Virus record (IMG/VR): IMGVR_UViG_3300010354_000527
Span: 1 to 26,591 of that record
Direction: 5' to 3' (one strand)
Length of the DNA stretch: 26,591 nt
Source of the DNA: a virus
Shown here: positions 612 through 26,591 of the stretch, in pieces
Layout of the letters: each line of letters begins with the position of its first letter
Numbering within the stretch: the stretch's first letter is position 1
Made by a program: the position numbers and the translations under genes
The notes under the pieces: generated by a model
Told to the model about the DNA's origin: nothing
The model's database searches: none
The model's input: the letters and a program-made list of their open reading frames with translations, nothing else

Positions 612-1865
612 ATGCAGAATCAAAAGAAGACGATACTATTTCTATCGGATCATCCTCTCTCAACTTCAGGTGTAGGTACACAAGCCAGGTGGTTGATAAG
701 CGGTCTGATTAATACAGGAAAATATAGCTTTAAGTGTTTTGGCGGAGCAATTCGACACGACAACTACGAAACTGTTGTAGTTAACCCAGATTTCATCATA
801 AAGCCTACGAACGGCTTTGGGGACAAGGCTCTTCTACGAAAGACACTTGCTCAAGTAAAGCCCGACGCGTTGTTCCTGTTTACAGATCCCAGATTCTTCA
901 TTTGGGTGTGGGAGATGGAAGACGAAATTCATCAGATTTGCCCAATTGTCTATTGGCACCTGTGGGACAATCCTCCATGGCCCGAATTTAATAGACCCCT
1001 GTATGAATCGAACGATGTTATTAACTGCATCAACTATCCCACTTATGAAATGGTAAAAGAGAAGTTACCAGAGAAGACGGGTTACATTCCTCATGCAGTT
1101 CCTCAAGACCTCTATTACCCACTTCCAAAAGAAGAATCTCTTAACTTTAAAAAGAAGCTATTGGGTGCAGATAGAGCTGATCATTTTACGTGCTTGTATG
1201 TTTCAAGAAATGCAAGAAGAAAAATGCCGAGCGATATCCTTGTTTCTTGGAAAATGTTTTTAGAGGATTTGCAGAACAAACAAGGTCATAAGAAGGCGAC
1301 TCTCGTACTTCATACTGATCCCATGGATCAAGAAGGAACGAATTTATTTCAAGTAATTGACTTATTGGGCATTAAAGACAACGTGGCCTTCTCTAAGGAT
1401 AGAATCGGCTTTAACGAAATGCGTCTCCTCTATAATGCATGTGATACGATTGTTAACAGGAGTTGCAATGAAGGTTTTGGTCTTCCAACTTTGGAAATGG
1501 CAATGTGCGGAAAGCCAATCATTGTACTGAAGACAGGTGGACTTACACGTCAGGTCGAAGACCCAGACACCGGAGAACAGTTTGGAATTGGAATGGATCC
1601 GGAAGTCAGGACGATGGTAGGAAATCACATGGTTCCTTACATCTACGAGGACTTTATTTCTCACGAAACTCTGAGGGACGCTTTTGTGAAGATGTATGAC
1701 ATGGGTCCTGAAGAAAGAGAAAAGCTTGGATTGAAAGCAATGCAAAGAGTGAGGAAAGAATACGACTTGAATAAGATGGTATCAGACTGGGACGATTCTC
1801 TTCAGAAAATTATTGACAAGTGGAACAACGATAGAGACCCAAGTTGGAAGGTAGAAGAACTATGA
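612..1865 (+). CDS. GT4-like glycosyltransferase (first of a tandem pair)
   Basis: This 417-residue protein looks like a GT-B fold retaining glycosyltransferase. The N-terminal Rossmann domain opens with a hydrophobic strand (TILFLSD) and a Gly-rich loop STSGVGTQARW (about residues 17-27). The C-terminal domain has the E-x7-E signature, NEGFGLPTLE with E287 and E295, followed by GKPIIVLKTGG, as in family GT4 nucleotide-sugar enzymes. Length is normal for a complete enzyme. The ATG at 612 is the first in-frame start after the preceding stop; the ribosome-binding sequence is weak (AGGGA only 2 nt before the ATG, or AGG 13 nt away). It overlaps the next gene by 4 nt (ATGA), so the two are probably translated together. 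Donor sugar and acceptor are unknown; candidates are virion protein, modified phage DNA bases, or host glycans. No nucleotide-hydroxymethylating gene is in the window to favour DNA. Confidence 0.85.
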   Translation: MQNQKKTILFLSDHPLSTSGVGTQARWLISGLINTGKYSFKCFGGAIRHDNYETVVVNPDFIIKPTNGFGDKALLRKTLAQVKPDALFLFTDPRFFIWVWEMEDEIHQICPIVYWHLWDNPPWPEFNRPLYESNDVINCINYPTYEMVKEKLPEKTGYIPHAVPQDLYYPLPKEESLNFKKKLLGADRADHFTCLYVSRNARRKMPSDILVSWKMFLEDLQNKQGHKKATLVLHTDPMDQEGTNLFQVIDLLGIKDNVAFSKDRIGFNEMRLLYNACDTIVNRSCNEGFGLPTLEMAMCGKPIIVLKTGGLTRQVEDPDTGEQFGIGMDPEVRTMVGNHMVPYIYEDFISHETLRDAFVKMYDMGPEEREKLGLKAMQRVRKEYDLNKMVSDWDDSLQKIIDKWNNDRDPSWKVEEL

Positions 1866-3073
1866 ATCAGCCTGATTTCAATTTTTTTAACTTGAGCAAC
1901 GGTTTCAGCAAGAAGAAAGTTTTGCTTAGAGGACCAGTATTGACACAGTCTGGGTACGGTGTACATGCACGTCAAGTAGCAAAATGGTTATTTTCTCGAG
2001 AAGATCTGGAGGTGGAAGTTCAAGCTCTCCCTTGGGGTGATACACCATGGCTAATCAATAGAGACTTGGACGATGGTTTTGTTGGCAAGTTAATGGAAAA
2101 GACCGTTGATCCGAAGGGTAAATACTACGACGCTTCAGTTCAAATACAACTTCCAAATGAATGGGATCCTACATTGGCAAAAATTAACATCGGGATAACA
2201 GCTGGTGTAGAAACTGACAGATGCAATCCTACGTGGACAAAAGATTGCAACAGAATGTCTGTTGTTATAGTTCCTTCAAGACATACAAAAAGCTGCTTAG
2301 AAAATTCTGGTGAAGTAACTGTGCCTGTACACGTGATCCAAGAGTCATTCTCTGAATCAATTTCAAAGTCAGAAAAAACAAAAATAGACGAGCTTGAGTT
2401 CTCAACGCCTTTTAATTTTCTAATTTTCGGTCAGCTGACGGGAAACAATCCAGAGAATGAGAGAAAGAATATTTTCTATACCATTAAGTGGCTTTGTGAA
2501 GCCTTTAAGAACGATAGAGATGTTGGAATCGTATTAAAGACAAATTCTGGGAGAAACACAAAGATAGACAGAAAGATAGTGGTACAAACCTTCGAAACTC
2601 TCATGAGAGAAGTCAGAAAGGGTCCTTATCCGCGTTTAAATCTGATACACGGGGACATGTCTGATTCTGAAGTGGCATCTCTATATAGACATCCAAAGAT
2701 AAAGGCATTAATAAGCTTAACAAGAGGTGAAGGTTATGGTCTCCCTATTCTTGAAGCTGCTGCCTCTGGTCTTCCCGTAATTGCGACGGGTTGGTCAGGA
2801 CACATGGATTTTCTCTCTCATGGGAAATTCATTGATATCAATTACACACTTTCAGAGATACATCCCACCAGAGTAGACAACAAGATCTTTATGAAAGGGT
2901 CTAAGTGGGCTCAGGTAAGTGAGGAAGATTTTAAGAGAAAAGTTCTTAAATTCAAGAATGCTTCTATTTCTCCGAGAGAATGGGCAAAGAATTTGCAACC
3001 AAAAATTCTATCCAATTATTCCATCGAAACAGTAAAAAGTTTGTACAATGAAGTCACAAAGGATCTGATTTGA
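1862..3073 (+). CDS. GT4-like glycosyltransferase (second of a tandem pair)
   Basis: A 403-residue GT-B glycosyltransferase. It shares the layout of its upstream neighbour: a start strand KKVLLRG, a Gly-loop TQSGYGVHARQ very like the neighbour's TSGVGTQAR, and a C-terminal RGEGYGLPILE with the E-x7-E pair at E290 and E298, then GLPVIATGWSG. I chose ATG 1862, which overlaps the previous stop as ATGA; an in-frame ATG at 1844 would add six residues and lengthen the overlap to 22 nt. The similar Gly-loop and motif arrangement suggest an old tandem duplication, although the middle segments have diverged strongly. As a pair they could add two different sugars in sequence. Substrate unknown; the fold and family are well supported. 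Confidence 0.85.
   Translation: MNQPDFNFFNLSNGFSKKKVLLRGPVLTQSGYGVHARQVAKWLFSREDLEVEVQALPWGDTPWLINRDLDDGFVGKLMEKTVDPKGKYYDASVQIQLPNEWDPTLAKINIGITAGVETDRCNPTWTKDCNRMSVVIVPSRHTKSCLENSGEVTVPVHVIQESFSESISKSEKTKIDELEFSTPFNFLIFGQLTGNNPENERKNIFYTIKWLCEAFKNDRDVGIVLKTNSGRNTKIDRKIVVQTFETLMREVRKGPYPRLNLIHGDMSDSEVASLYRHPKIKALISLTRGEGYGLPILEAAASGLPVIATGWSGHMDFLSHGKFIDINYTLSEIHPTRVDNKIFMKGSKWAQVSEEDFKRKVLKFKNASISPREWAKNLQPKILSNYSIETVKSLYNEVTKDLI
3058..3063 (+). promoter_or_regulatory. Ribosome binding site fixing a TTG start
   Basis: AAAGGA lies 6 nt before TTG at 3070, inside the end of the second glycosyltransferase gene. Its spacing supports TTG as the start of the small membrane protein; the next in-frame ATG is far downstream and would lose the membrane segment. 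Confidence 0.6.
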
Positions 3074-6354: not shown

Positions 6355-6822
6355 ATGGCGACCTATAGCTTTAAGAGTGTAGGAAAGACTCAAACACAAA
6401 TAGATGAAGAGACAACTAAAAAGTCTCTGATTCCTTATGGAATTAAGACTCCCATGCAGCTGGGAGACAAAGAAGGCATATTCTCAATGAATTACAGCCT
6501 AGAAGACCAATTTGCTGACAATCTAAAAAATCTTCTCTTGACAAATTGGGGAGAGAGATTGGGTCTTTACCAGTTTGGTGCAAACTTAAAACCTCTTACG
6601 ACCGAATTTGTTTCACAAGACGATTTTGATAGTGAGGCTATAGTAAGAATAAAAGATGCAGTCGAGAAATGGATGCCCTTCGTAGATCTTGAAGATTTTA
6701 GTTCTGAAGTCGACAGATTAGAAAACAAGAACACAGGCATAATAAAGATAAGCATCACATACAACGTACCTCTGATTAATGTGTCTAGAAAAGGTCTACA
6801 AATAGTCTTGTATGTGGTGTGA
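6355..6822 (+). CDS. 25: Baseplate wedge protein gp25
   Basis: A 155-residue member of the GPW/gp25 family, which joins the wedge to the hub and helps start the sheath; T4 gp25 is 132 residues. The hallmark block LEDQFADNLKNLLLTNWGER starts at about residue 49 and leads into RLGLYQFGANL, matching the family pattern of a helix ending in L-T-x-x-G-E-R and a following F-G. Residues after 90 (IVRIKDAVEKWMPFVDLEDF) give the second conserved helix and strand. It is the first gene of the plus-strand cassette after the divergent gap, and gp6 follows 37 bp later, the order known in T4-like phages. The ATG at 6355 lacks a good ribosome-binding sequence; an out-of-frame ATG sits 4 bp before it. Confidence 0.85.
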   Translation: MATYSFKSVGKTQTQIDEETTKKSLIPYGIKTPMQLGDKEGIFSMNYSLEDQFADNLKNLLLTNWGERLGLYQFGANLKPLTTEFVSQDDFDSEAIVRIKDAVEKWMPFVDLEDFSSEVDRLENKNTGIIKISITYNVPLINVSRKGLQIVLYVV

Positions 6823-6859: not shown

Positions 6860-8731
6860 ATGGCAATCAATGACAACAAAACTGCGCTGAAATCAATCAG
6901 GCAGAGAAATTATTTGGCAAGAGACTTCGATGGCTTCAGAGCCGTGTTGTTGGATTACGCCCGTCAATACTACCCGGATAGAATTCAGGACTTTTCAGAG
7001 TCCTCTGTTGGAGGTCTATTCTTGGACATGGCGGCCTACATTGGAGATAACATGTCTTTTTACATGGACCATCTCTATGGAGAGCTGAATAGTGATACAG
7101 TAATAGAAACACCAAACATAGAGAGGACTCTGAGAAATTCTGGTGTCCCTATAACAGGTGCTTCTTCAGCAGTAGCTAATGTAGACTTTTACATAGAAGT
7201 TCCTGTGCTAAATGACGGAACTCTAAGACCTGATCCTGCTTTGATTCCAACCATAAATGAAGGGTCAATAATTCAAGCTGATAATGGAGTTGAATTTCTT
7301 CTATTAGAAGACGTTAAGTTTTGGGTCTCTGACAAAATCAACGGGACAATAACAGTTGATCCTTCAGTCGAAGTAGTAAACGGAAGAAGAATAAACGGCA
7401 TCGTTACATCAAAAATACTTCGAAAAAGTGGAGTTTGCGGGTCTGGAACGGAAACAACTGAGTCATTCAGCATAGGTGATTTCGTACAATTTAGAAGAAT
7501 CTCTCTTTCACAAAATGACATAACACAGATAATAGATGTATCTGATGGTCTCGGAAATGTCTACTACGAAGTAGATAGTCTAACATCAGATGTTGTCTAT
7601 AGAAACGTTCTAAATACTGCAGACAACAGTCAATCACCCGTAACTGTCAAAGACAATCTAAAAGTAATACCTGCGCCTTATAGATTTGTTAGAGAAGTCT
7701 CACTGTCCGATAGGAGAACTACTCTAATTTTTGGAGGAGGGACTGCTGATAGCTTGGAAGATGACGTCATACCTGATCCTTCCGAATTCTCCATACCGCT
7801 ACCCTACTCGCAGTCATTCTCAAGAAAGCCTCTCAATCCTCAGAAACTTCTACAGACATCAACGCTTGGAGTTTCAGCTTCTAACACCGTTTTGACTGTC
7901 AGATATAGGTACGGCGGGGGTCTTTCACACAATGTCCCAGCAAATACAATAAGAAACATAGTAAATCTTGTTGTTACTTTCCCAAACAATCCATCAGCAG
8001 CTCAACAAGCACAGATAAGAAGCACCATAGAGGCCTCAAATCCTCTGCCTGCAGCTGGCGGAGAAGATTCTCCTTCTTCTGATGAACTTCTAGCATTGGC
8101 ACCCACAATGAAAGGTGCACAAGACAGAATGGTAACTAAAGAAGATCTACTCTCCAGAGTTTACACAATGCCCAGTAATTTTGGAAGAGTATTCAGAGAT
8201 GCAGTCGTTAAGAATCCTGACAACCCAATGGCGACCAGACTTTTCATAATATCAAGAGATAAAAACAGTGAGCTCGTGACATCTCCTGATAGACTCAAGA
8301 TAAACTTGAAGAGATACCTCAATTCCTACAGGATGATTTCTGATGCAGTTGACATAATGGACGCCCAAGTAATCAATCTCCAGTTATTCTTTCAGATAGT
8401 CGTTGATCCTTCACTCAATAAGCAGACTCTTTTACAAAGTATAATAAGTGATCTAAGAGACCAACTAAGCGTCACAAACTTTCACATAGGACAACCCATA
8501 GTGATATCAGATGTCATTACGACAATATTCTCAAAACAAGGTGTTATATCGGTAGACAAAATAAGATTTAATAATCTGAGTGGCACCGTAAACAACAGAG
8601 ACTACTCCCAGATAACATTTGATCCAAAGATGCACACTAAAAATCAGATACTGTACCCACCTGATGGAGGAATTTTCGAGATAAAATATCCTGACGTTAA
8701 CATCATAGGAAAGTGCGTTTCTAATAGGTAA
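6860..8731 (+). CDS. 6: Baseplate wedge protein gp6 (baseplate J-like)
   Basis: A 623-residue protein close in size to T4 gp6 (660), the dimeric clamp that forms the inner ring of the baseplate. The N-terminus RQRNYLARDFDGFRAVLLDY (from residue 15), then ESSVGGLFLDMAAYIGDNMS and FYMDHLYGELNSDT, is the characteristic start of gp6/J-type wedge proteins. The C-terminal half has a typical baseplate-J block: KGAQDRMVTKEDLLSRVYTM, the strand FIISRD, then LKINLKRYLNSYRMISDAVD and a repeat of alpha-beta units to the end. The ATG at 6860 follows a GGGCGGTAATAA leader. It lies between gp25 and the DNRLRE-like gene. Confidence 0.85.
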   Translation: MAINDNKTALKSIRQRNYLARDFDGFRAVLLDYARQYYPDRIQDFSESSVGGLFLDMAAYIGDNMSFYMDHLYGELNSDTVIETPNIERTLRNSGVPITGASSAVANVDFYIEVPVLNDGTLRPDPALIPTINEGSIIQADNGVEFLLLEDVKFWVSDKINGTITVDPSVEVVNGRRINGIVTSKILRKSGVCGSGTETTESFSIGDFVQFRRISLSQNDITQIIDVSDGLGNVYYEVDSLTSDVVYRNVLNTADNSQSPVTVKDNLKVIPAPYRFVREVSLSDRRTTLIFGGGTADSLEDDVIPDPSEFSIPLPYSQSFSRKPLNPQKLLQTSTLGVSASNTVLTVRYRYGGGLSHNVPANTIRNIVNLVVTFPNNPSAAQQAQIRSTIEASNPLPAAGGEDSPSSDELLALAPTMKGAQDRMVTKEDLLSRVYTMPSNFGRVFRDAVVKNPDNPMATRLFIISRDKNSELVTSPDRLKINLKRYLNSYRMISDAVDIMDAQVINLQLFFQIVVDPSLNKQTLLQSIISDLRDQLSVTNFHIGQPIVISDVITTIFSKQGVISVDKIRFNNLSGTVNNRDYSQITFDPKMHTKNQILYPPDGGIFEIKYPDVNIIGKCVSNR

Positions 8732-10254: not shown

Positions 10255-13200
10255 ATGGCAACTAGATCCAACTCACCTTACGTCCCAACTTTTCTAAAGT
10301 CTTCGATTGTTGATTCGAAACCCATACAACTAACATACGCTGATTTTAATCTAGACGATTCAAGTGCAGGCAATACTGGGTCTTTCAAATATGATCCTCT
10401 CGGTTACCCACTAAAGAGTTCACAACAACTAAATGTAGATTGGTCAAAATTTGAAAATCACACTTTTTTCTCATCTGCAGAAGTAAAAGTAAATGAAGCC
10501 TTCAACAAGATAATCAATAACTTTCCTTTCGATGGATCCAAAAAAGAAGTAGAGATTTTTTTAGACTCGTTGACCGGTTTTGAAAAGTGGATCTTTGATA
10601 GATTTCCAAGATGGTCAGGCGCTCTTCATTTCTCTGGCACTCAAATAGGAGAAGTTCCTTCGACCACTGCTGGAAACTGGATAAGTGTGAAGGACAAATC
10701 CGGTAATCTTTACCCCGAACTAGCAAAAAATAGACAAGGTAAAACTGTAATAAATCCAGGAGATGACGACTCATTTACAATAGAAGCTTTGGTTTTTCTT
10801 CCAAAGATAACCAACGGTACGCAAGTAGTTTTTCAAAAAGCAGCTAGTCAATCTGACGGCATTACTTTACACTTAGAGCCAAGTACCTCTATCGATAGTG
10901 TAAATGCAGTTTTTAGTGTGACTTCAGGATCTTCTAGAAATAGTGTCTCAAGTACGCTATCGAAAGGATCATATAATCACGTCTGTGTTACTCTCAATAA
11001 GAACGACGTAAAAGAAAATAGCCTGCAGTTCTATCTCAATGAACAACTTGCATCAGAGAGTAGCAAGAAGGTAAGAATAAAAAAGATAAACGCTGATGAG
11101 TCAGATTTCTTGATAGGTTCAGGAAGTTCTTTTTATTACGAAAATACTCTTGTAACTCCGACACAAACATTCAGTGGAACTATTGACGAGCTTAGAGTTT
11201 TTCACGCTGTAAGAGACACAAAGATTCAGAGTCTGTATTCATCAAGAGGTCTTTACGCATCACCTGATTTAAAACTCTACTACAGATTCAATGAACCATC
11301 CGGCTCATTGACCATCAATAACAGCTCTGGAATTGAGTCCATAGTTCTTGATAGCTCTGGAAATTCTTTACATGCAAATGTGAATAATTTTTCTGCAAAT
11401 AGAAGAGTTAACTCTTACCTTGACGTGAAAAATGTCCTAGTCAATGAAAGAGACGAATTTAAGGTAGTTCTATTCCCAGCATTTCAAGAAATTGTGGACT
11501 TAAACATGGACCTGCTATTGTCAGCAAGCGAATATGACAGAGCAAATCCAAACAACATCTTGAGACTAGTTCCTCAGCATTATCTTCTTGAAGGAGCTTC
11601 ACAAGATGGATTTATCAATATTGAAGGCAATGGAGGAAACCCCTACGGGGGAGAGGGAATACCGGGCCAAGGAGAAAAAGGATCTGTTCAGATTATTCTC
11701 TCTTTCTTGTACATCTGGTCCAAATTTTTTGATGATCTAAAGACTTACATAGACTCTTTTGCAACTTTAAGGACAGTTAACTACGATCTATCAGACACTG
11801 TGCCTGACAATTTTCTTGACGACATAGTCCGTCAGTACGGTTTCTATCTTCCTAAGTTTTTTAGTAATGCTTCTTTAAGTCAGTTCTTAGATGGGCAACA
11901 AATCAATTCACTTGACGACATCTCTGTTGCCTTGAAAAAAATTCAATCGACTATGGTTAGAAGAGTTCTTGTAAATCTTCCTCAAATAGTTCGATCAAAG
12001 GGAACACAGCATAGCATTAGGACTTTTCTAAGGTCAGTTGGAATAGACCCTGACAATAGCTTAAGAATAAGAGAATACGGCGGTCCTACTGTCAAACAGC
12101 TAACAACCTCTAGAGAGAAAAGAGTAGAACCTGGGGCCATGGTCGACATGTCAGGTTCTAATTTAATTGTTACTCTGCCACTTTCGTCATCAAGAGTAGA
12201 ACCAGGATTTCCTACACCTGCTGGTTCATTTGTGTTAGACAGTGCAGGTTCAATAAAAGGAACTAACAAAAATTCAGACGGACTTTTGACTTCAGGTTCA
12301 TGGCACCTCGAAGGAGTCTTTAAGATACCTCCTCAGAAATTCACACAGATAACAGACTCTGATGGAAATCAGTCGCTAATGAGAATGTACGTGACAGGAA
12401 GCTCCGTGGGTTCAAAGCCCGGTCTTATCGTCAACGTAGTTGCAACACAATTCAAAGATCATCCATACACAAGTTCAAAAGTAAAAGCGTTCCTAAGACC
12501 AGGTTTCTCTAGTAATTCTCCACAGCTTGAACTAAGTCTAGACGTCGACGGCAAGGGAATATTTGATGGCGATAAGTGGAATGTATCGATCGGATGTTTT
12601 AGAAACGACGAAATTGAATCTCAAACATCGTCTTCTTATTATTTGAGAGTTGGAAAAAATGACTCGGGAGATCTTGCAGTAACATATACGACATCTTCTT
12701 ACTTTTATGAACAAATTACAAGTGAAGGAAATGCATTTAGAAGTGGATCTTCTCAATATAACTCTTCTGGTTCGTACATCGCCATAGGAAGAAATCAGAC
12801 AATTCCATCAGGAATACCTGCAGGAGGTTATCTTTTTCTTAATGACACACTAAACGTCGATGACATTGCAAGAACAGTCGACTTTTCAGGCTGGACATCC
12901 AATCTTAGATTTTGGTCAAAAGGTCTAGACATAGAAGAATGGAAAGAACACGTCAGGAACCCCAAATCTTTTGGTGTTTCAGATCCGCTAAAAAATTATA
13001 ACTTTGTTAAAAACATATCTGGGTCTTTTGGGAAACTTAGAATGGACACACTGCAAAAGCAACCTGAAAGGTACGCTGATGCTAATGGAAAACTAACTCT
13101 CTTGGACTTTAGTCAGAATGAAATAGAAGCAGAAGTAACTGGGTATGTCTCAGGAAGCAAATCTCTTCTTGGTGATTTGTTCAGTTACAGCTACATTTCT

Positions 13201-13764
13201 CCCATGTTTGATGAAGCTTCGACAGACGATAAGATTAGAGTTAGAAGTTTTCAAAGCCAAAATTTTCTCTCTGAAAATCCATGGGCTGTAGAGGCACCCA
13301 CTTATCTTAGCAATGACATGTTTCTTCAAGAAGAGCCTCAAGATGACTTAAGACTTTCAATAGAGTTCTCTATGGTAGATTCTATGGACAAAGACATCAT
13401 ATCGATGTTTTCATCTTTGGATATGCTGAATGATGTTCTAGGAAGCCCAGAGTTAATGTTCTCTCCTGACTACCCTGACCTTGAAAATCTTCGAGATGTT
13501 TATTTCAATAGGCTGTCTGGAAAGCCTGATTTTAGAAAATTCTTGGAATTTTACAGGTGGTTCGATTTTTCAATATCATCATTTGTCGAACAGCTAGTTC
13601 CAAGTAAAACTCTGTATAAAGGAACAAATTTTGTCATTGAGTCGCACATGCTTGAGAGACACAAGAACATGTACCGACACAGCAACAACTACTTGGGTGA
13701 GAGACAAACAATACAAGATAGTTTATTGTTACAGCAAATAGTAGGAAAGTTGAAGAAATTCTAA
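10255..13764 (+). CDS. 7: gp7-like baseplate wedge protein with two LamG/ConA-like domains
   Basis: A 1169-residue protein in the gp7 position (T4 gp7 is 1032). Residues about 172-365 form a LamG/concanavalin-like domain: DSFTIEALVFLP, YNHVCVTLN, QFYLNEQLA, GTIDELRVFHAVRD and a closing LKLYYRFNEPSG. A Gly-rich linker (GGNPYGGEGIPGQGEKG, around 461-476) follows. Residues 569-611 (RRVLVNLPQIVRSKGT, then HSIRTFLRSVGI and LRIREYGG) match the core shared by wedge and tail protein I families. A second ConA-like domain runs from about 675 to 905 (SGSWHLEGVFKIP, YIAIGRN, WTSNLRFWSKGLDIEEWKEH). The C-terminal domain ends with FVIESHMLERHKNMYRH, a motif I associate with wedge proteins of marine T4-like phages. 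The start is 4 nt after the previous stop. Its position and core support the wedge role. Confidence 0.65.
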   Translation: MATRSNSPYVPTFLKSSIVDSKPIQLTYADFNLDDSSAGNTGSFKYDPLGYPLKSSQQLNVDWSKFENHTFFSSAEVKVNEAFNKIINNFPFDGSKKEVEIFLDSLTGFEKWIFDRFPRWSGALHFSGTQIGEVPSTTAGNWISVKDKSGNLYPELAKNRQGKTVINPGDDDSFTIEALVFLPKITNGTQVVFQKAASQSDGITLHLEPSTSIDSVNAVFSVTSGSSRNSVSSTLSKGSYNHVCVTLNKNDVKENSLQFYLNEQLASESSKKVRIKKINADESDFLIGSGSSFYYENTLVTPTQTFSGTIDELRVFHAVRDTKIQSLYSSRGLYASPDLKLYYRFNEPSGSLTINNSSGIESIVLDSSGNSLHANVNNFSANRRVNSYLDVKNVLVNERDEFKVVLFPAFQEIVDLNMDLLLSASEYDRANPNNILRLVPQHYLLEGASQDGFINIEGNGGNPYGGEGIPGQGEKGSVQIILSFLYIWSKFFDDLKTYIDSFATLRTVNYDLSDTVPDNFLDDIVRQYGFYLPKFFSNASLSQFLDGQQINSLDDISVALKKIQSTMVRRVLVNLPQIVRSKGTQHSIRTFLRSVGIDPDNSLRIREYGGPTVKQLTTSREKRVEPGAMVDMSGSNLIVTLPLSSSRVEPGFPTPAGSFVLDSAGSIKGTNKNSDGLLTSGSWHLEGVFKIPPQKFTQITDSDGNQSLMRMYVTGSSVGSKPGLIVNVVATQFKDHPYTSSKVKAFLRPGFSSNSPQLELSLDVDGKGIFDGDKWNVSIGCFRNDEIESQTSSSYYLRVGKNDSGDLAVTYTTSSYFYEQITSEGNAFRSGSSQYNSSGSYIAIGRNQTIPSGIPAGGYLFLNDTLNVDDIARTVDFSGWTSNLRFWSKGLDIEEWKEHVRNPKSFGVSDPLKNYNFVKNISGSFGKLRMDTLQKQPERYADANGKLTLLDFSQNEIEAEVTGYVSGSKSLLGDLFSYSYISPMFDEASTDDKIRVRSFQSQNFLSENPWAVEAPTYLSNDMFLQEEPQDDLRLSIEFSMVDSMDKDIISMFSSLDMLNDVLGSPELMFSPDYPDLENLRDVYFNRLSGKPDFRKFLEFYRWFDFSISSFVEQLVPSKTLYKGTNFVIESHMLERHKNMYRHSNNYLGERQTIQDSLLLQQIVGKLKKF

Positions 13765-16036: not shown

Positions 16037-17922
16037 TGGCATCTTTTTCAGAAAATTCTTTGTTTGAGCAAGGCAGATTTAATGACCCCTTTTATGTGAC
16101 TGGGTCAAAATCTAGGATAGGAGAAGAACCAGGTTCTTTCTCATCAGCGCTGAGAGATAAGACACAATTAAAGGTAACTTTTCCAGTCAAGAACAAAGTA
16201 AAGATGCTTGCAAACAGTAGCAGTATCTACTATTACGACATAAAAAACGGTCAATGGAACATCCCACAAAAATCAAAAGCAGATTTGACTGGCTTCTCTG
16301 GACATACAGCTTTTGATTCCAAATCAACAGTTGTTGGAACTTCCGGTATATTCACAGGAATTGTCATACAGACAGGAACGTCTGGTTCCATCTTTGTGGA
16401 AGATGACAAATGGTTCGACACGCACGGGAATAGCCTGGGATCCGGAAGCATAGACATCTTCAATCCGATTAGATATTTTTTACTTGAAGACAGACGACAG
16501 AAAATACTTGAGGAAAGCTTTCCACCTTTAAATGTTATTAAGCCAGATAGGTGGAGCAATTTCTTGACCTATGACATGCCGAATAGCGTTCAAAGAAACT
16601 CAATGTACGACACTTCTAATGGCGAAACATTTACATTACCGATAACAGAGCCTTTCATGATTGAAAAAGTCGTTTTTGAAGTACCTTTCTGCTTCGGAAA
16701 CGGTTGGTTCAATGACAGAACTGCTTTGACTATAATGACCTCATCGGCAGGAGATTATACTGTAACTTTTTATGAGGGAGAAGCATCATACGATGTACAA
16801 GTTAAGAATCTAGTTGCAGACAGTAAAACATTCACTGACCTTTTTCTCAACGAATATCAGTTTATTGAAGTTGCAAAGAGTGGAAGTGCATCTGTCTACA
16901 ATTACGGCGGTCCTGGAATAACACTATCTCTCTTCTCAGAGAAACCAAATGGTCTTGGGAGAATTAGAGACCTTGTCTGTAGAGGATTTTTGACTCACGA
17001 AGAAGACACTAAAAGGGACATGAAATATGTTCCTGTTTTTGACGGAAAGTTTCAAAATTTCGGAGATTTCGATAATTTTTGGTGGCAATTAACGACTCTT
17101 GGTGTCGATACCAATGAGACAGAAGTTGATGCCGTCGTAAGTGCATCGTACATTGGAAGTAGCAAATTCTTTACAGGCAGTGTAATAGTCAAGTCCGAAG
17201 TCAATGTCTCTAATGGAATTAGAGTGATGCACACGAGAACTTTAAAAGGATATCCTGAATTTATACCTGGAGAAGAAGAAGATATATGGAATTACTACTT
17301 TAAATCTTATGAAGAGGGCATGTCCTTCGTTTCGGGATGTTTAGAGAACGAGTATGTTCCTCTTGGAGATGCTGTTCTCACTGGTATTGATGCTTTCGGA
17401 AGAGGAATGACAGGATTTTCACCGAGTGGTGGATCCATATTCGGAGGGGAATTTGTGACTGCCGGCACAGACGTAATCAGAAGGGATGGGTACATAAGAA
17501 ATCCCTCGTACATACCTGAACCAAATAGGACAGCAATACTTTCATATGTCTCGTCAAGTCTTACGTCATTTAATCAATATTACCCTGAATCTAATACCTT
17601 AGGTTTAAATGAGTATTACGCTTCTAATTTGAAGGTTCCTTGTTATTATTTCATTGGCTCAAGAAGAGAATCACCTTACCTCATATATCCGGGTGAAAAG
17701 CTCACGCTTTCTGTATCAAAAGAAAGACCGGCTTTTGTGAACTTTAAGGCCAACTTCTCTTCAGCATTACTTTATCTGTTTGGTCAAGCAAACATTCTGT
17801 CTTCATCATACTTGATGGACTTAAAAGACCCAGAAGGACATGACGTTCAACTGAACACAGGAGACATCAACATAACGTTCTACGGCTCTTATGTGAGAGA
17901 AGGAAATAAGTACATACCATGA
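16036..17922 (+). CDS. Peripheral virion protein (628 residues)
   Basis: A 628-residue protein beginning with GTG 16036, preceded by AGAGGT. It opens with ENSLFEQGRFNDPFYVTGSK and is beta-rich, with many Gly-Ser turns. Blocks that stand out are FNPIRYFLLEDRRQKILEES (around residue 140), a domain near 210-330 with FCFGNGWFNDRTAL and NYGGPGITLSLFSE, a Trp-rich strand (FDNFWWQLTTLGVD), FGRGMTGFSPSGGSIFGGEF (around 455), and a C-terminal domain with YFIGSRRESPYLIYPGEKLTL, a typical closing layout of large tail proteins. I recall similar blocks in tail proteins of marine T4-like phages but cannot name a family or a role. It overlaps the following gene by 4 nt (ATGA) and is flanked by other long tail proteins, so it belongs to the same virion assembly. 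Confidence 0.6.
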   Translation: MASFSENSLFEQGRFNDPFYVTGSKSRIGEEPGSFSSALRDKTQLKVTFPVKNKVKMLANSSSIYYYDIKNGQWNIPQKSKADLTGFSGHTAFDSKSTVVGTSGIFTGIVIQTGTSGSIFVEDDKWFDTHGNSLGSGSIDIFNPIRYFLLEDRRQKILEESFPPLNVIKPDRWSNFLTYDMPNSVQRNSMYDTSNGETFTLPITEPFMIEKVVFEVPFCFGNGWFNDRTALTIMTSSAGDYTVTFYEGEASYDVQVKNLVADSKTFTDLFLNEYQFIEVAKSGSASVYNYGGPGITLSLFSEKPNGLGRIRDLVCRGFLTHEEDTKRDMKYVPVFDGKFQNFGDFDNFWWQLTTLGVDTNETEVDAVVSASYIGSSKFFTGSVIVKSEVNVSNGIRVMHTRTLKGYPEFIPGEEEDIWNYYFKSYEEGMSFVSGCLENEYVPLGDAVLTGIDAFGRGMTGFSPSGGSIFGGEFVTAGTDVIRRDGYIRNPSYIPEPNRTAILSYVSSSLTSFNQYYPESNTLGLNEYYASNLKVPCYYFIGSRRESPYLIYPGEKLTLSVSKERPAFVNFKANFSSALLYLFGQANILSSSYLMDLKDPEGHDVQLNTGDINITFYGSYVREGNKYIP

Positions 17923-20900
17923 GTGTGTTCGAAAAAATTTTTACCGATTCAATCAAAGACGTCATAGGCAATGACCCTGTCGTAGATCAATTCGATACAG
18001 TCTATAATTCATCTTTCTTCGGAACTTCTCAAGATGATTACATTACAGGATCACTCCTGTCAGTCTCAAGAAGAGAAGGTAAGTTCGTATTTACAGAAGG
18101 GACAAGAGGAAAAGCGTTCAGTAAATACTTTTCTTCGATTCAGCCGCAGCTTTCTTACAATTTTTCTTCGAGAGATGTTTCACTAATCCCACAGCTATCT
18201 TACAGGCAAGTTGCTTGGAGTGATAGAGTTTCCAAGACATCCAATAGAATAGCTCAGTGCTTTGATTCAAAGGAAAGATACTACGACTCTTGCCTTCCTG
18301 ATCTAAACTATTGTTTAAAGCAAAACAACACAAGACCTTGGCATTTAAATACTAGATTTTCATTAAGTCCTTATGGCAATGTTGATGTAGACAACAATGC
18401 TTTTATGATATTCAACAGTATTCCTCTTAATAGAAGCAGTGAAGGTTTTAGCAATGATCCTACAGTAAACAATGAGTGGACATGGTCATATCCTTATGAC
18501 CCGAAATACAATCCCACAAGAAGAATGATAAAAGTCGAAGAGTCACTAGGGATTAGGTATTCTGATCTGAAAGCTGACTGGAATTTTGCAATTTCTGGAT
18601 CAAGCTATTTTTCTAATTGGAATATAAACATAGAAAACGTTACTAGCCTTGACAAGAATTCGCTAATATCAAAAAAGGGAATAATACCGATACTCCCAGG
18701 CAAGTTGGACTCGACCTCTATTTCTGCGCACGGAGGAAGAAATTCTCTACGTGGAGTTTTTGATCAGAAGTCTCCGTACTATACAAAGCTCATATATGGA
18801 ATAGACTCACAACTTGACAATAAGTTGGGCGTATCTCTTTTGGTTCCTTCTGATGTCAATCTCGGAAAATACGCTGATCACTCTTACCTTGGCGGACTTT
18901 CTGTGTCAGACCCAGGTTACGAATTGTTGACTGGCTCGATGACTCTTGACGATACTATCAAATTCTTCTTTGGATTTGGTGATCTCAACAATATGACTTA
19001 TTCTCGTTATAACTACGAAGAAACAAGCAAGCAATATGAGCAAGACTTTGAGATAGGTGAAAATATATTTTATTACTTTTGGGGCAATGCTGGTTCTTCA
19101 GACAGCCCAAGAGTAGACACAGAAGACAGGGCTTTAGATAGAGTACAGCAAACAACTACATACACAGTCTCCAGGTCAAGCGGAGGAGGAGAATTAGGAT
19201 TATCCGGATGGCTTTCTATTGGTTTCAATAGTTCGGCAACAACTGACACTTATTGGCTTACAGACTCTGGTGATCCAAATAGAACATCCATTCCTGCAGG
19301 GACTTGGACATTTCGGATCAATTGTTATGGAAACACATCCGGCATGCAGATAAAGGCAGAAATATACAAGCTGGCTGGATCTACTCCCACACTATTGGGA
19401 ACTTCCGAAGCAAAGTCTATTCCTGTTAACATGACATACATGAGGCTCGACTGGAATATCGCATCTCCAATTTCGGTCCTTTCTACAGATAGAATTGCTG
19501 TTAAACTTTTGATGTACGTCCCGCCTACAAATTATTTCATCAATCACATTGCTTATGTCAATAACAGATACTCTTACTTTGGATTTTTGCTCACAAGATA
19601 TTCGTCTTTGTCAACCAACATGATGAATACCTACAACCCAAACACGAAGTATAGAGAAGCAAAAGACACACCTACGTACAGCTTGGATGACTTAACAGTC
19701 AGATGGAACAATTCCACGTCGACAATGCCTTGGTGCACCGTCTATAGATCGGGTAGCACAACTATAGACGGAGCAGCTTATAACTTCTGGGGTCCTGCGC
19801 CTCTCTCTGGGACAGTCAGTCCATACAAGAGAGGTATATTTGGATTAACAGGCACAAATGAAGATTTTATCCTGTATGCGTCTGGAAGCTACGATACTTC
19901 TGTGCAACAATTTAGCAGATTTTGCCTGGACATAACTTCTTCAAGTCCGTGGTCAATTAGCTATGATAGAGCCGTTGCAGGTCCTCAGGAATTTTCATTA
20001 ATCTCATACATCGCAGGATACCCAGGAGTTCCCTCCCACCTTCTACCAGGAGGTGCGTTTTCATCTACTGAACTCATAGATGTTGTCACTGGTTCAAACA
20101 ACGATCCTGGAACAACACCGTCCCCATCAAGTCCAAAGTTTTATTTCGACACATTCAAAAATTTCGACTCCGCGTACGAATACAACGGTACAGCACAGAA
20201 TCCTACGACTTTTTATCCCGGTGAGTGGAGGTTTGTATTTTCCTTAAGTTGGGATGGCATCACGTCGAACGATTTCATAATGTCGGGTGTTGACAACATA
20301 AAGATAAAAACTTACAGTATAAGTGGTGACATTGACGGTCCGAAGATAGGCGGCAACAACTATCCTCAATTCAGAACATACAGAGTAGATCCTAGGAAAA
20401 ACGAGACAATTTCAATTACCTTGACTCCAACAGAGCTTACAGGATCAAAGCAGTTACACGAGGCCAACATCTTTGGCGTGTCACCTGTCATAAGAGGGTG
20501 GAAATACGGCCTAATCAACGGCCTTCCCACGAACTCAAAGGCTGTCTTCAGGAGGAATAGGTTTGGACAGTTCAGAGACATGCTCGAACAACGTCAATAC
20601 ACTAAATTCATAAATGTCGATGACTCACCGTCCGATGACGATGCGACAACTAGAAGCGGGTTCAACAAATTCACACAATCGAGACTGACCAGAACTATCA
20701 TAACTAACACGGTTGGTCCTTCAGTAGCTGAAGTAGGATTCTTTAGACAGAGATACAAGAAAGACGAAAGAGGAATTGGATTCATATACAACGAAAGTGT
20801 TAGTCCAAATCTCACCACTTCTCAGAATCTAAGCACAGAAGTTACTTCTTCATTTCCTTACTTTGATGGTGAAGCAAGAATTAGACAAGAGTCAGACCTC

Positions 20901-20966
20901 GCATTAATTACTGATGCAACTCTCACGTCGTTGCAAATAGATACGACAGGTCTGACGGTGGTCTGA
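17919..20966 (+). CDS. Large peripheral virion protein with jelly-roll-like insert (1015 residues)
   Basis: A 1015-residue protein. The N-terminal part ([20 protein letters not shown]; later [20 protein letters not shown]) is followed by several beta domains. Residues about 405-560 look like a jelly-roll adhesion domain: a long strand set with [39 protein letters not shown] and [16 protein letters not shown], a pattern frequent in carbohydrate-binding and phage receptor-binding modules. Near the C-terminus [20 protein letters not shown] continues into [17 protein letters not shown] (about residues 865-895), a strongly conserved-looking block I associate with large structural proteins of marine T4-like phages. 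It starts at ATG 17919 (ATGA overlap) and ends 1 bp before the fibre ATG, so it may be the fibre's attachment partner; that is inference. Confidence 0.6.
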
Positions 20967-20967
20967 G

Positions 20968-23900
20968 ATGACAATAGCCAAAAATTCCAATGACGCTCTG
21001 ATATACGTAACGGAAGCTGGAAAGCTCAGGCGAACGGTCGTCGCCTCGGACTTGCAAGTAGGATTCCCGGGCTCTCCTGGAGAGCTTCAGATAACAGGCA
21101 AACTAGTACAGAGCGTGAAGCCTGTGACAGTTTCTCCTGGTCAGTCTGTCACATTTTCTGGCGAAGTTTCAATTCTGACTCTGTCTATAAATGGATCTGG
21201 GTCTGGAACAGTTACTGTGGTCCTGCCGAACAAGTCAAAAATAGGACACACTTGCTTCATCAAAGACGTCGACGGGAAAGCTTCTACTCACAATATAGTC
21301 GTAAAGACCTCAGACCCCAACGTAAAAATAGACGGAAATACGACAAAGATCCTAACGTCGAATTATGAAAGCATAATTCTAGCTTGGACAGGAAGCAGCT
21401 GGAGCTCATTAGGAAACTCTTCGTCAGGAGGCGGTGGAGTAGGTCCAACAGGCCCTGCAGGCCCAACCGGCCCAACCGGCCCAGCAGGACCAAAAGGAGC
21501 AACGGGAGCAGCGGGAGCAGCGGGTGCAACGGGTGCAACGGGAGCAGCGGGGGCCACCGGCGCGGTGGGACCTACAGGCCCAACAGGTCCTGTAGGAGGT
21601 TCTGATACGCAAGTAGTCTTTAATGACGGAGGAGCAGCAGCAGGGTCTGCAGGTCTCACTTACAACAAGATCACGCAAGCATTAACGGGAACCTATGTCG
21701 TTGCAACGACGGGTTTCACAGGATCTCTCACAAAGTTAGTGGACGGTACATCTTATTTGATTGCTGGTAATAACATTGTTATATCAACCGGATCAATAGG
21801 CAATGTGACGATTAGTACATCAGGTATTGCTTCTAATTCTGCACAGTTTCTTACTTTAGCTTTAGATGGAGGTCTCACATCTGAAAGAGTCTTCACTGCT
21901 GGAACAGGACTATCAGGAGTCGATTCTGGTGCAAACGGAAATTACACACTATCAATAAATGATTCTGTGGTCGCCACAGTCAGTGGAACAACTTTCACAG
22001 GTGCGACTAGGCACAGCGCAGGTCTCAGTGGTTCTCTTACGAATCTAACTGATGGAACGTCTTATTTGCTAGCAGGTTCAAACGTAGCTATAAGCACTGG
22101 GTCCAACGGCTCTGTTACTATATCCGCTCCGAACCTTGCGCCATCAACCTCTGCTTTCGTAACAATAGGAAACGACTCAAATTTATCAAATGAGAGATCG
22201 CTGACTTCGGGTACTGGCGTAAACGTGACGGACGGCGGTCCAAACAACACTGTCACGCTCTCCATCAACGATTCAGTAGTAGCAACTATCAGTGGATCCA
22301 CTTTCACAGGTGCTGTTAAATTCAACCAGGGTCTAAGCGGTTCTCTTACCAATCTAAATGACGGAACTTCTTACCTGATAGCTGGCGGGAACATGGTTGT
22401 GACGACAGGGTCTAACGGATCAGTCACTCTATCCACCATCAACAGCGGAAGTGTCTTAGGTACAGGAACTCAAAATTATGTAACAAAATTCACGACACAG
22501 GACACTATCGGGAATAGTTCAATTTATGACAATGGGTCTGGTGTAAGTGTTAACACAACTACTGTTGCTGCAAGTTTGCTTGTGTCGGGATCTTCTACGA
22601 CTGCGTACCCATCATTTGTGGTTAGGTCAGGAGTTACTTCTTCTGTAGCATCAGTTCTTGATGTGCAAGATGTTAACTCTATTAGCAGGCTTTTCGTTTC
22701 AAGTTCTGGACAAGTTGGAATAGGAACTAACTCGCCAAGTGGATCTGCAGTATTTACTGTGCAGGGAAATTCATTCTTTGGAAATAAAAACAGCAGTATT
22801 GCACTGACTGACCCAAATTATCCAAAGAAATTCGTTGTTAATAACACAATATCTGATGGTGATTTTGGTAATTTTGGATCTGTAGGAGCATTGATCGGCA
22901 ACAATGCAGAAGGAACCGATAATACTAAAAGCACATACGGATTGATTTCTTCTCTTATTGTTCCATCAGGAACTGTATACACGGGCGCCGGCGGCGGAGG
23001 AATATATTCTGGGTACTTCTATGCTACAGCAAACAACACTGGTTCTGCGCCTAATCCCACATTCTCTTGGCTTGCAGGAGTGTACGGAACAGCATATGGA
23101 TCGAACGATCTCACCATGGGATCCCGCCTCTTAGGTGGTTATTTCCAAGGAACTTATAATGGACTCGGCGGTTACACAGGTGGCAATCCTGACTCACACG
23201 GAGTCTTTGGGTCACAGAACTTCTCCACTGCTAGAGGAGGAACTCACTCAAACGTGGGAGGAATCTACACCGGCGCAACAATATCGAGTGCGTCAACCAC
23301 AGCAAACGTCTACGGAATTAGGGCATATGCAAGCCTCGCAGGCAATGGAAGCGTCATAACGAGCGCGTATGGCGCATGGTTGCAGATGACTAAATCTGCA
23401 GGCACAGTCACTAACTCGTACGGTCTGTATATCAACGACGTCTCGTCAATAGGCACTACAAGCTATGCGATCTATTCTGTCGGAGGCCAGAGTTATCACG
23501 CAGGAAATGTAGGAATAGGAACGTCTGCATTTACAAGTAAGCTGGCTGTGAATGGCACAACAACTGCATACGGTCTCGTTCAACCTGGAACAAATAACAC
23601 ATATGATCTAGGTTCTTCTCCCGGAAATTTCTGGAAGACTGTCTTTGCCACCAACTTGACGGGTTCCTTAACAAGACTGTCCGATGGTACTTCATATCTC
23701 ATTGCAGGCAACAACATTTCTATCACAACGGGATCGTCAGGTGCAGTCACGATTTCAAACTCTGCACCAATTTTTTACCAATGGAATGAACTCTCACCCT
23801 CTCCAAGACTCAACACAACAGCGTCTGTGTCTATAGCGGGCACTCTTGGATCAAGTTATGCTGCTCAATCAGCAGGAACAGATGTTTTCTTCTTCGTCAG

Positions 23901-26591
23901 CGGATCATCATCGACTACGTTCGGTGTATCTGTCTTTGGGGGAGATCTTATGGTGAGTGGAACTCTAGAGACACACACAATAAGAAACTTCTCCACAAAC
24001 AACACGACTACGTCGCTTGCTTTAAGCGGTTCCACGTCAGGAACTACTCAGACAGGCAAAGGAATAGCACTAGTAGCTGCTGTTGGTGGAAGCAGCGTTG
24101 GAGGTGGCAATATATCAGTGACAGCAGGAGCCGGAACAGGTACCAGCTCTCCTGGTGGATCCGTCACAGTGACAGCAGGAGCCGGAACAGGTACCAGCTC
24201 TACGGGCGGGTCAGTTACGGTGACAGCAGGAAACACGAGCACCGTCGCGGCGGCAGGCTCCATAACTCTCTCGGCTGGCGACACAACTTCAACGGGAGCA
24301 ACGGCAAACGCCGGCAGCATAACGCTGAATGCAGGATCTCTGTCAAGCACGGCGAGCGGATCAGCAGGAAACATCTCTCTTACGACTGGTGCTGCTGCAG
24401 GTTCTGTTGCAACACCAGGAAATATAACACTGACTGCTCAGAGAGGCAGAGTGATAGTCAGGAGAGCATCAACCGCTGTCACAGTAGGGTCAGACGTCTT
24501 CATGTACGTGACTGGAACTATTGGAGGAAATGATAGAACAGTCTTTGCTGGGGACGTGAGGATTAGTGGTTCCCTCTTCACAGGAACAGGGTCTATTGAG
24601 ATAAATGAGAGCGAAGTCATAATCGGCACAGCTTCTCCACAAAATTCTGCCAAAGTTAGACTTACGAGGACCGATCAAGGCGATCTTATGTTCTACGATT
24701 GGTTCAATCCATTAGGAAAGTCGCTCAGCAACCTCACGTCATCACAAGCTCCAAACAACGCTTCCTATCTCGTCCTAAATGCAGATAGCTTGCTGACGAA
24801 TGAAAGAGTTTTCACTACAGGCATAGGACTATCATCTGTCAACGCAGGTCCGGGTAACAATTACACACTGTCCATCAACGACTCCGTCGTCGCGACAGTT
24901 TCCGGGACCACATTCACAGGTCCCGTAACATTCAATCAAGGATTTAGTGGATCTTTAACAAATTTACAGAATGGTTCTTCCTATCTTGTAGCAGGCAACA
25001 ATGTCACTATCACGACAGGATCGAACGGTCAAGTGACAATAGCGTCAAGCGCGCCCCCAGGAACAGTTAGCGGCACAGGTACGGCAAACTACGTACCCCT
25101 GTGGTCAGGAGCTAACTCTCTTGTAAACACAAGTATCATCTATAATATTGGAAACTCAGTTGGAATAGGAACAACGGAGACCAACGGAAACACCCTTTCA
25201 GTAAACGGGACAACTGCAATAACGGGGTCCATCCTACCAGGTCAGAATTTAAATCACGATATTGGATCGTCCACAAAATCTTGGCGTGACTTGTACGCAA
25301 GAACAGGATCTTTCAGCGGAGACATGATCATTTCAGGAGACTTGAGAGTGATGGGTACGTCGTCCATCATCAACTCTGAAGTTGTCAACATCAAGGACAA
25401 CGCGATCCTCCTCAACGCAGGCCCGTCTCCGATCAACTTCGGTGGCGTCTACGTGGCGGACACGACCGCCAACACGACGGGATCGATCATCTGGGACACA
25501 TCAACAGATAGATGGAAGGCAGGCCTCGTAGGAAACGAGACGAACGTGGTCCTCACGGGATCGACGGATAATCTCTACAATAAGACGATACCGATCACGG
25601 GTTCTGATTTAAACAATATTTCTGGTGGGACTTCTGGGGGCGTGGGATACTTCGACACCTCCACCAATCTCAAGTCGACGACTGCAGGAACTTCTGGTCA
25701 GCTGCTGCAATCCGCCGGTTCAAGTGTGCCCACGTGGGTTAACTTCGGCACATTGATGAGTGGAAGTTCGGTGATCACAGGAAGCGGTACATCAGGTTAC
25801 CTCTCGAAGTTCACAAGCGGAAATGCTTTGGCCAACAGCAATATGTTCGACGACGGAACGAACGTCGGAATCGGAACGACAGCATCACTAACCAGAAAAT
25901 TCAATGTACAAGGTACAGGTTACTTCAGCAGTGATGTTACTGTAAACTCTCTCATAAACACAACAAAAATAGGATCTTTGGATCTAATAAACTCCGACTT
26001 CAGAATCGGAACTTACTCCTCGAGAGACATAATTTTCGGTCAAGGATCCGGAGGCACGGAGTTCGGAAGATTCCTATCAAGTGGTCTCCTCGCCGTCACA
26101 GGGTCTTTGGAGCCTGGAAACGATCTTCAGTACAATCTTGGATCTACGTCTAAGAGGTGGCTAAATGTGTATGCTGCAAACATCAGCGGATCCCTCACAG
26201 GAAGTAATCTCACAGCAGGTCAGGTTGTCGTAGTCGGAACTGGCGGGGTCCTTAGCGGTTCTAACAACTTCTGGTGGGACAATACGAATGGAAGAGTGGG
26301 GGTTGGAACTTCGTCTTCTCTCACCGCCAGGCTATATGTCACAGGATCCTCTTCGGCGCCGGCTCTTGTGGTTCGGTCTGCCCTCTCATCCTCAAACTAC
26401 CCGTCGACAGAATTCCTGGATGATGCTGGTAACTCGCTGTTCGTGCTGAGCGGAAGCGGCAACATCGGAATTGGAACGAATCCTGGGTCAGGAAAAGTTA
26501 TAGTTTCTGGAAGCATTACCAGTGCTGGCAGTGGTTACGCAAGCGCCACTTATAGACAAGTTGCATTGACTGGTGGCACTGGCTCCGGCGC
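20968..26591 (+). CDS. Giant modular tail fibre, 3' partial
   Basis: Starting at ATG 20968, the frame stays open to the window edge: 1874 full codons without a stop, so the protein exceeds 1874 residues. In order I see: a beta-rich head (to about residue 150), 17 collagen-like Gly-x-y triplets (21442-21594), a repeat array of 35- and 41-residue units (21712-22434), a [11 protein letters not shown]...VGIGT module, an aromatic YGI/YGLY repeat domain (22999-23487), single repeat copies, a GxVTVTAG beta-helix (24100-24441), a further 41+35 pair, and more VGIGT modules (near 25153, 25861, 26299 and 26464) with D-L/I-G-S-S-x-x-x-W motifs at 23602, 25255 and 26131. These features are typical of trimeric phage fibres, and fibres with them usually end in an intramolecular chaperone (peptidase S74) domain, which would lie beyond the window. 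Role: host receptor contact. Confidence 0.85.
21442..21594 (+). repeat. Collagen-like Gly-x-y region of the fibre
   Basis: Seventeen uninterrupted Gly-x-y triplets: GPT/GPA first, GPK once, then GAT/GAA, and GPT again. Such stretches form triple helices in phage fibres and mark the shaft after the head domain. The DNA is G+C-rich and repetitive (GGNGCNACG patterns), unlike the A+T-rich genes upstream. Confidence 0.9.
21712..21816 (+). repeat. Fibre 35-residue repeat, copy 1
   Basis: Copy 1: [20 protein letters not shown] then a strand ending NVTIS. Shared core: G-S-L-T-x-L-x-D-G-T-S-Y-L-x-A-G-x-N, T-G-S, V-T-I/L-S/A. All five copies are exactly 105 nt. Confidence 0.85.
21880..22002 (+). repeat. 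Fibre 41-residue repeat, copy 1
   Basis: From [12 protein letters not shown] to SINDSVVAT and SGTTFTG; 123 nt, followed after 18 nt by the next 35-residue unit. Confidence 0.85.
22021..22125 (+). repeat. Fibre 35-residue repeat, copy 2
   Basis: [20 protein letters not shown] and a strand ending SVTIS. It begins exactly 309 nt (103 residues) after copy 1. Confidence 0.85.
22189..22311 (+). repeat. Fibre 41-residue repeat, copy 2
   Basis: From [12 protein letters not shown] to SINDSVVAT and SGSTFTG; again 123 nt and 18 nt before the next 35-residue unit. Confidence 0.85.
22330..22434 (+). repeat. Fibre 35-residue repeat, copy 3
   Basis: [20 protein letters not shown] and a strand ending SVTLS; 309 nt after copy 2. 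The regular array stops here and unrelated modules follow. Confidence 0.85.
22999..23487 (+). repeat. Fibre aromatic repeat domain (GIY/GVY/YGLY)
   Basis: Short Gly-aromatic strands recur about every 15-25 residues ([69 protein letters not shown]), as in a beta-helical fibre shaft. It ends just before a VGIGT module. Confidence 0.7.
23653..23757 (+). repeat. Fibre 35-residue repeat, copy 4
   Basis: [20 protein letters not shown] and a strand ending AVTIS. An isolated copy, about 1.2 kb after copy 3, following a YDLGSS motif at 23602. Confidence 0.85.
24100..24441 (+). repeat. Fibre GxVTVTAG beta-helical repeats with a 51-nt tandem DNA repeat
   Basis: About seven rungs of G-x-I/V-x-V/L-x-A/T-G type (ISVTAG, VTVTAG twice, ITLSAG, ITLNAG, ISLTTG, ITLTAQ). 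At the DNA level a 33-nt sequence beginning GTGACAGCAGGAGCC recurs identically at 24118 and 24169 and its first 12 nt again at 24220, a 51-nt (17-residue) period. Confidence 0.8.
24799..24921 (+). repeat. Fibre 41-residue repeat, copy 3
   Basis: From [12 protein letters not shown] to SINDSVVAT and SGTTFTG; 123 nt, and 18 nt before the fifth 35-residue copy, the same spacing as in the main array. Confidence 0.85.
24940..25044 (+). repeat. Fibre 35-residue repeat, copy 5
   Basis: [20 protein letters not shown] and a strand ending QVTIA. It is followed by an SGTGTANYV...VGIGT module, as copy 3 is followed by GTGTQNYV. Confidence 0.85.

Follow-up and report, generated by a model that had tools for sequence, protein, structure and literature searches.

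A probable portable repeat block in a fibre-like protein of a virus record and its relatives among large uncultured phages

Introduction

The cells to which a phage can attach are usually determined by its long fibres, and in uncultured large phages much of the sequence of these proteins belongs to no named family. A block that is recognisable, keeps a preferred spacing and recurs in many contigs of this kind is of use as an anchor for splitting such fibres into modules and for locating exchange between them. The last gene of the virus record IMGVR_UViG_3300010354_000527, a linear record of 26,591 bases that is referred to as a whole as the window, encodes a fibre-like structural protein in which units of 35 residues (A) and 41 residues (B) recur, some at a constant spacing and others far apart. 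The question raised by this locus is how such a mixture of regular and isolated units arose. In an earlier note on the same sequence, it was read as one array into which receptor-binding modules had been inserted or swapped. We consider it likely that the fibre was instead assembled from interchangeable modules, where the repeat is a portable block of 82 residues, consisting of B, six residues and A (B-6-A), with a variable linker in front.

Results

Gene and Genomic Context

The fibre-like gene is located at 20968..26589 on the + strand, as are all the features described below, and its ORF of 1874 aa is open at the contig end. The name "fibre" is a putative assignment based on this ORF, a collagen-like Gly-X-Y stretch, baseplate-gene neighbours and a match to BclA. 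The Gly-X-Y stretch at 21433..21600 (about aa 156–211) is recognised in the sequence itself, by Pfam Collagen (E 5e-05, 23.4 bits, under the cut-off of 27.2) and by BclA, which was obtained together with collagen-containing chains and two kinesin constructs when the whole protein was compared with solved structures at E <= 1. The PHROG tail fiber family phrog_10972 matches aa 156–213, and phrog_38806, a family of unknown function, matches aa 129–274 (E 1.4e-07). The position of Gly-X-Y near the N-terminus is likewise seen in collagen-containing phage fibre proteins; in the window protein, the match to phrog_10972 is limited to the collagen stretch. Together with the N-terminal domain and an FNDGG module, the collagen-like stretch makes up the first part of the protein (20968..21711, aa 1–248), which also takes first position in the related loci L002, L003, L009 and L010.

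The chain is long (1874 aa or more) and repetitive and contains Gly-X-Y, and its low-pTM structure model, described below, consists only of strands. It also lies in a tail/baseplate neighbourhood, where baseplate wedge PHROG families are matched upstream at 6355-6822 (E 0.00063) and 6860-8731 (E 5.4e-11), and Pfam GPW_gp25 is matched among the upstream genes below its cut-off.

Repeat Units in the Window

The five A units begin at aa 249, 352, 455, 896 and 1325 (nt 21712, 22021, 22330, 23653 and 24940), and the three B units begin at aa 305, 408 and 1278 (nt 21880, 22189 and 24799), in agreement with the earlier note. In 3/3 cases, the 41-residue B is followed by a gap of 18 nt (6 aa) and a 35-residue A, and A1, A2 and A3 are spaced by 309 nt, both as had been described. 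The isolation of the fourth A unit and of the pair of B3 and A5 also holds, since arithmetic on the coordinates gives 1218 nt from A3 to A4 and 1041 nt from A4 to B3.

The period of 103 residues proposed in the earlier note is found in three full copies; however, a linker of 21 residues before every B had been missed. The full unit is composed of the linker (21), B (41), six residues and A (35), which gives 103 residues. Module copy 1 occupies 21817..22125 (linker 21817-21879, B1 21880-22002, gap 22003-22020, A2 22021-22125), module copy 2 occupies 22126..22434 (linker 22126-22188, B2 22189-22311, gap 22312-22329, A3 22330-22434), and module copy 3 occupies 24736..25044 (linker 24736-24798, B3 24799-24921, gap 24922-24939, A5 24940-25044). 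The other two A units, A1 (21712..21816, 35 aa, with no B before it) and A4 (23653..23757), stand alone. The linker is also present before B3, although no A precedes it there. A linker profile built from 23 distinct linkers of other loci ranked positions 387, 284 and 1257 at the top among the 21-mers of the protein with 56.4, 28.5 and 18.6 bits, respectively, where the next score was −3.0.

The protein identity is 63–77% over the 10 A pairs, corresponding to 22–27 of 35 identical residues, and 63–78% over the 3 B pairs, and the DNA identity is 56–74% for the A pairs and 61–70% for the B pairs. The best 35-residue match was 29 in the real sequence and 15 in 20 shuffles of aa 212–1874. The A pairs have a pS of 0.55–0.89, which is near saturation, and a pN/pS of 0.26–0.43, which indicates that the copies are old and that the protein was kept by selection, as the earlier note had supposed. 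The stretch of the window that matches L002 (aa 1363–1643) has a pS of 0.66 and a pN/pS of 0.19 between the two; thus, the A copies are about as diverged synonymously as these two phages.

These values bear on an explanation in which A and B are DNA-level recombination targets valued for their nucleotide sequence, where the conservation of the protein is a by-product. Such targets would agree with the changes in module order at A units described below. However, the synonymous sites are near saturation while the protein is kept, and the longest exact DNA match within the window is only 6–11 nt between A copies and 11–12 nt between B copies; it reaches 17 nt when the A units of the window are compared with those in the main fibre ORF of L002. 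We regard this explanation as highly improbable.

Units across Related Fibres

Related loci were collected from viral_contigs by scans with the fibre, which gave five loci, with the upstream gene, where the best 80 of 125 relatives were taken, and with the module, where the best 80 of 193 relatives were taken, amounting to 64 loci; several loci are pieces of one contig. Units were assigned using A and B profiles at E <= 0.001, and the ends of partial matches were extended to the full profile. In the collected loci, units were found in 180 ORFs (both units in 127, A only in 45 and B only in 8), which together hold 426 different A sequences and 276 different B sequences.

The gap from B to A is exactly 6 residues in 150/239 distinct adjacent pairs and differs in the remaining 89/239, where the next commonest gaps are 5 (14 pairs), 12 (13), 17 (10) and 18 (8). 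Among the best 80 loci of the scan with the upstream gene, which were selected independently of the module, 50 carry units, and the gap is 6 in 21/37 of their pairs (21/32 when the gap is <=30). The gap from A to B is looser, with peaks at 3–6 and 21–25 residues. L092 (1351-6678) contains 15 consecutive B-6-A copies with a gap of 6 throughout, along which the linker shifts from 22–25 to 4–8 residues and B from 41 to 39. The preferred gap of 6, while the linker and the A-to-B gap vary, indicates that B-6-A is the steadier block and that the period of 103 residues is one form of it.

In the relatives, A often stands alone and short arrays are frequent, and the units are spread over two, and once three, ORFs of a locus, and two or more ORFs carry units in 49/120 unit-bearing sources (the window included, some sources sharing a contig). 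The fibres of L002, L004 and L005 carry arrays of linker, B, six residues and A at other places than the window fibre. As judged from these sequences, the best explanation would be that many large uncultured phages use B-6-A as a single copy or in arrays, short or long, and frequently in several ORFs.

Module Order in the Window and Its Relatives

The stretch up to A1 is common to L002, L003, L009 and L010 at 49–58% identity, and after A1 the fibres diverge. In the window, A1 is followed by the two tandem module copies and then by a segment of aa 490–895 (22435..23652), a candidate variable part for which no close full-length relative was found among the collected related fibres. Its first 95–99 residues match L143 and L130 at 45–48%, its longer alignments to L145, L002, L003 and L010 have about 26% identity, and its core (aa 591–861) has a single match of 59 residues in viral_contigs. 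BLASTP between whole fibre proteins was of little help, as it produced long alignments of low identity. In the corresponding place after A1, L002 has a 90-residue segment and a short form of B, and B is absent there from L004 and L009.

After A4, a conserved intervening domain (23758..24591, aa 931 to about 1208) is common to L002, L009 and L088 at 61–67%. In these three fibres, it runs directly into an A unit, and the extra piece of about 116 aa in the window (24592..24939), which consists of 47 aa, the linker, B3 and the 6-aa gap, is absent at the matching site. The segment of L088 after that A resembles window aa 1128–1323 (41.6% over 197 columns), which indicates that the extra piece is itself used elsewhere; a gain and the loss of an A out of an L088-like order would account for the window equally well. 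Following A5, a conserved block (25045..25899, aa 1360–1644) is common to L002, L004, L010 and partly L005, with 70–81% identity over 249–307 aa.

The alignments show that module orders change across A units among the relatives. The earlier note had proposed to check whether the intervening modules vary while the repeats stay. After A4, the domain is conserved while the B module comes and goes, and from A1 to A4, the repeats and the other modules both vary.

Within the conserved intervening domain, a glycine-rich stretch contains a tandem duplication of 51 nt (17 aa) at 24116..24217 with 88% DNA identity, at which the alignments to L002 and L009 shift by 17 residues on the diagonal. This duplication is probably the most recent repeat of the gene.

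Ancestry of the Copies

The tree of B-6-A cores was built from 72 sequences, to which 119 exact 41-6-35 cores had been thinned at 97% identity. A single clade of the three window copies appeared in none of the 200 bootstrap trees (0%) and had an AU p of 0.018, from an alignment of 82 columns in which the bootstrap had not settled. With the same 82-column tree, a clade of the tandem copies 1 and 2 had an AU p of 0.027. Copy 2 of the window joins the copies of L003 and L010 (98/91), apart from copies 1 and 3. The three copies of L002 cluster with one of L103, and four of the six copies of L005 cluster. The nearest relative lies within the same locus for 22/52 of the copies that have a locus mate. 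In this tree, the copies within the window fibre are shown to have separate ancestry, and local duplication and exchange are, by its topology, both at work among the copies.

An original array of 103-residue units within this fibre, into which receptor-binding modules were then inserted, would account for the exact lengths and spacing of the units and for a segment such as aa 490–895 with no close full-length relative, and long uninterrupted arrays exist elsewhere, as in the 15 copies of L092. However, the window copies are not one clade; the post-A4 domain of L002, L009 and L088 is followed by A with no linker and B; linker, B, six residues and A form arrays elsewhere in the fibres of L002, L004 and L005; isolated A units and short arrays occur frequently in relatives; and no non-unit block is listed as common to L092 and the window. 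The single interrupted array is rejected on the copy tree and the matching sites in the relatives, and we hold a history of this kind to be quite improbable. What remains of the earlier reading is that old copies were maintained by purifying selection and that the module content changes, whereas its one ancestral array is not supported. Assembly from interchangeable modules with a portable B-6-A block is retained as the preferred reading.

The A Unit as a Probable Boundary

Block ends were counted when they fell within 5 residues of an A unit or of a mock 35-aa mask. Before the mock control, the ends appeared to be enriched two- to threefold near A (19.5% vs 9.2%; 15.3% vs 4.8%). This enrichment was rejected as a masking artefact, because 111/712 ends were near 333 A units and 92/712 were near 285 mock masks. 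The boundary claim thus rests on an unmasked flank test.

In the flank test, a 35-residue stretch was taken when one of its flanks matches another fibre, and its second flank was then examined for a continuation along that diagonal. The sample consisted of 54 fibres with three or more A units (the window included) of 129 non-redundant ORFs; flanks that run into a further A or B unit were excluded, so that the test concerns A units outside arrays. The homology breaks across A in 340/419 cases and across random 35-aa stretches in 13040/32448, where the cases are not independent of each other. When the comparison is confined to the 238 ordered fibre pairs in which A and random stretches both occur, the breaks at A amount to 270/340 against 190.4 expected, and the break rate at A is higher in 109 pairs, lower in 22 and equal in 107. 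Other motifs show fewer breaks than A, with 98/143 at DLGS, 228/381 at GIGT and 12/28 at FNDGG; DLGS and GIGT break above random, and FNDGG breaks at about the random rate. The best reading of these alignments would be that A is a common boundary element of fibre modules.

A stronger form of this reading is that A is a shared interface standard, a 35-residue coupler common to the fibre genes of large phages that differ in other respects. We regard it as conceivable but doubtful. If true, such a standard would let domains be swapped without loss of the fold and would be an element of the grammar of phage fibre evolution.

Fold and Sequence-Family Searches

The AF2 single-chain model of A-linker-B-6-A contains strands and no helix, with a pLDDT of 77 and a weak pTM of 0.39. 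Chains that intertwine in a trimer may be modelled badly when taken singly, so this model neither supports nor refutes a trimer. At E <= 0.001, the model had 0 matches in the PDB and 2 in BFVD with TM-scores of 0.35–0.37 by query; one of the two BFVD matches is named as an uncultured Caudovirales phage. The module profile compared with solved structures at E <= 10 gave one lipoprotein chain and no fibre.

Pfam CBM_X2 (PF03442) weakly matches the core of A in 26/43 stretches at E <= 0.01 and was found in 9 of 10 stretches scanned singly, where L101 alone passes the cut-off (31.7 vs 28.9 bits). RbmA-like_FnIII also matches aa 249–489 weakly (21 bits, cut-off 27). These matches would be consistent with A being a small CBM_X2-like carbohydrate-binding or adhesive unit whose repetition serves multivalent attachment to the surface of the host, and not mainly a structural coupler. 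However, the window stretch itself stays below the CBM_X2 cut-off (19.3 vs 28.9 bits), and the matches span 21–42 residues within profile positions 22–62 of 83, so that a quarter to under half of the profile is covered and not most of the domain. Moreover, A is too short for a whole CBM_X2 domain. A mainly carbohydrate-binding A is considered unlikely, and a role as a boundary or coupling element is preferred.

Over the 43 stretches, PHROGs gave four families, each in 1–3 members, and NCBIfam gave two stray matches; in the libraries searched, the repeat block has no named family. The whole protein had no match among phage records at 1e-5, where near records may be left out. Pieces of the fibre weakly matched MT836178.1 (E 0.7) and MW202545.1 (E 0.07), and the part after A5 matched LR745206.1, an uncultured phage of 634,780 bases, with 36.9% identity over 82 residues (E 1e-5). 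A scan of genome_contigs with the module gave 28 pattern matches and no relative. A literature search with module peptides gave no match, which says little because papers rarely print such sequences.

Discussion

The protein is probably a mosaic, trimeric beta fibre of shuffled modules, whose fold and trimeric state are inferred. In such a fibre, three chains would be intertwined and B-6-A would form a single rigid beta element, which would fix its length and leave the linker free to vary. The A unit would act as a coupling element beside which different domains attach. Both recombination among fibre genes and tandem duplication would have propagated the copies. Contact with the host would be made by variable segments, aa 490–895 among them, which may possibly bind receptors.

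Shuffled fibre repeats are already known in principle, and the block described here is one with no named family in the libraries searched. As stated in an excerpt of PMC3004832, a short repeat is common to several fibre proteins of T4, with seven in gp34, six in gp12 and one in gp37, and an excerpt of PMC5537660 describes the mixing, matching and duplicating of domains in gp34. The T4 quasi-repeats resemble B-6-A in that a short repeat is shared across fibre proteins of one phage. They differ from it in that, according to the same excerpt of PMC5537660, the T4 repeats hold alpha-helices in a three-helix bundle, whereas the window model has strands only, at low confidence. A T4 fibre was sought among the sequence matches of the module profile and the whole protein to solved structures, and none was found.

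The tail-associated BACON arrays of crAss-like phages are attributed in an excerpt of PMC6949934 to sequential duplication in one lineage and largely to horizontal domain transfer in two. They are alike to the window fibre in principle and consist of a different domain; the Pfam matches listed for the window protein and for the 43 stretches include no BACON. By analogy, the B-6-A block may work like the T4 quasi-repeats and the BACON arrays, to neither of which a sequence link was found.

Other genes of the window gave several minor observations. Two overlapping neighbour ORFs at 612-1865 and 1844-3073 both match the glycosyltransferase family phrog_2170, and the ORF at 3382-4203 matches phrog_234 (E 6e-07), a family of late sigma transcription factors. 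A gene of 1169 residues at 10255-13764, which sits between the baseplate-like genes and the fibre, has a concanavalin A-like lectin match above the cut-off (Laminin_G_3, E 1.5e-11). The gene directly before the fibre (17919-20966, 1015 residues) has relatives in contigs of up to 369 kb, some of them with <30% identity, and is a possible marker for this phage group.
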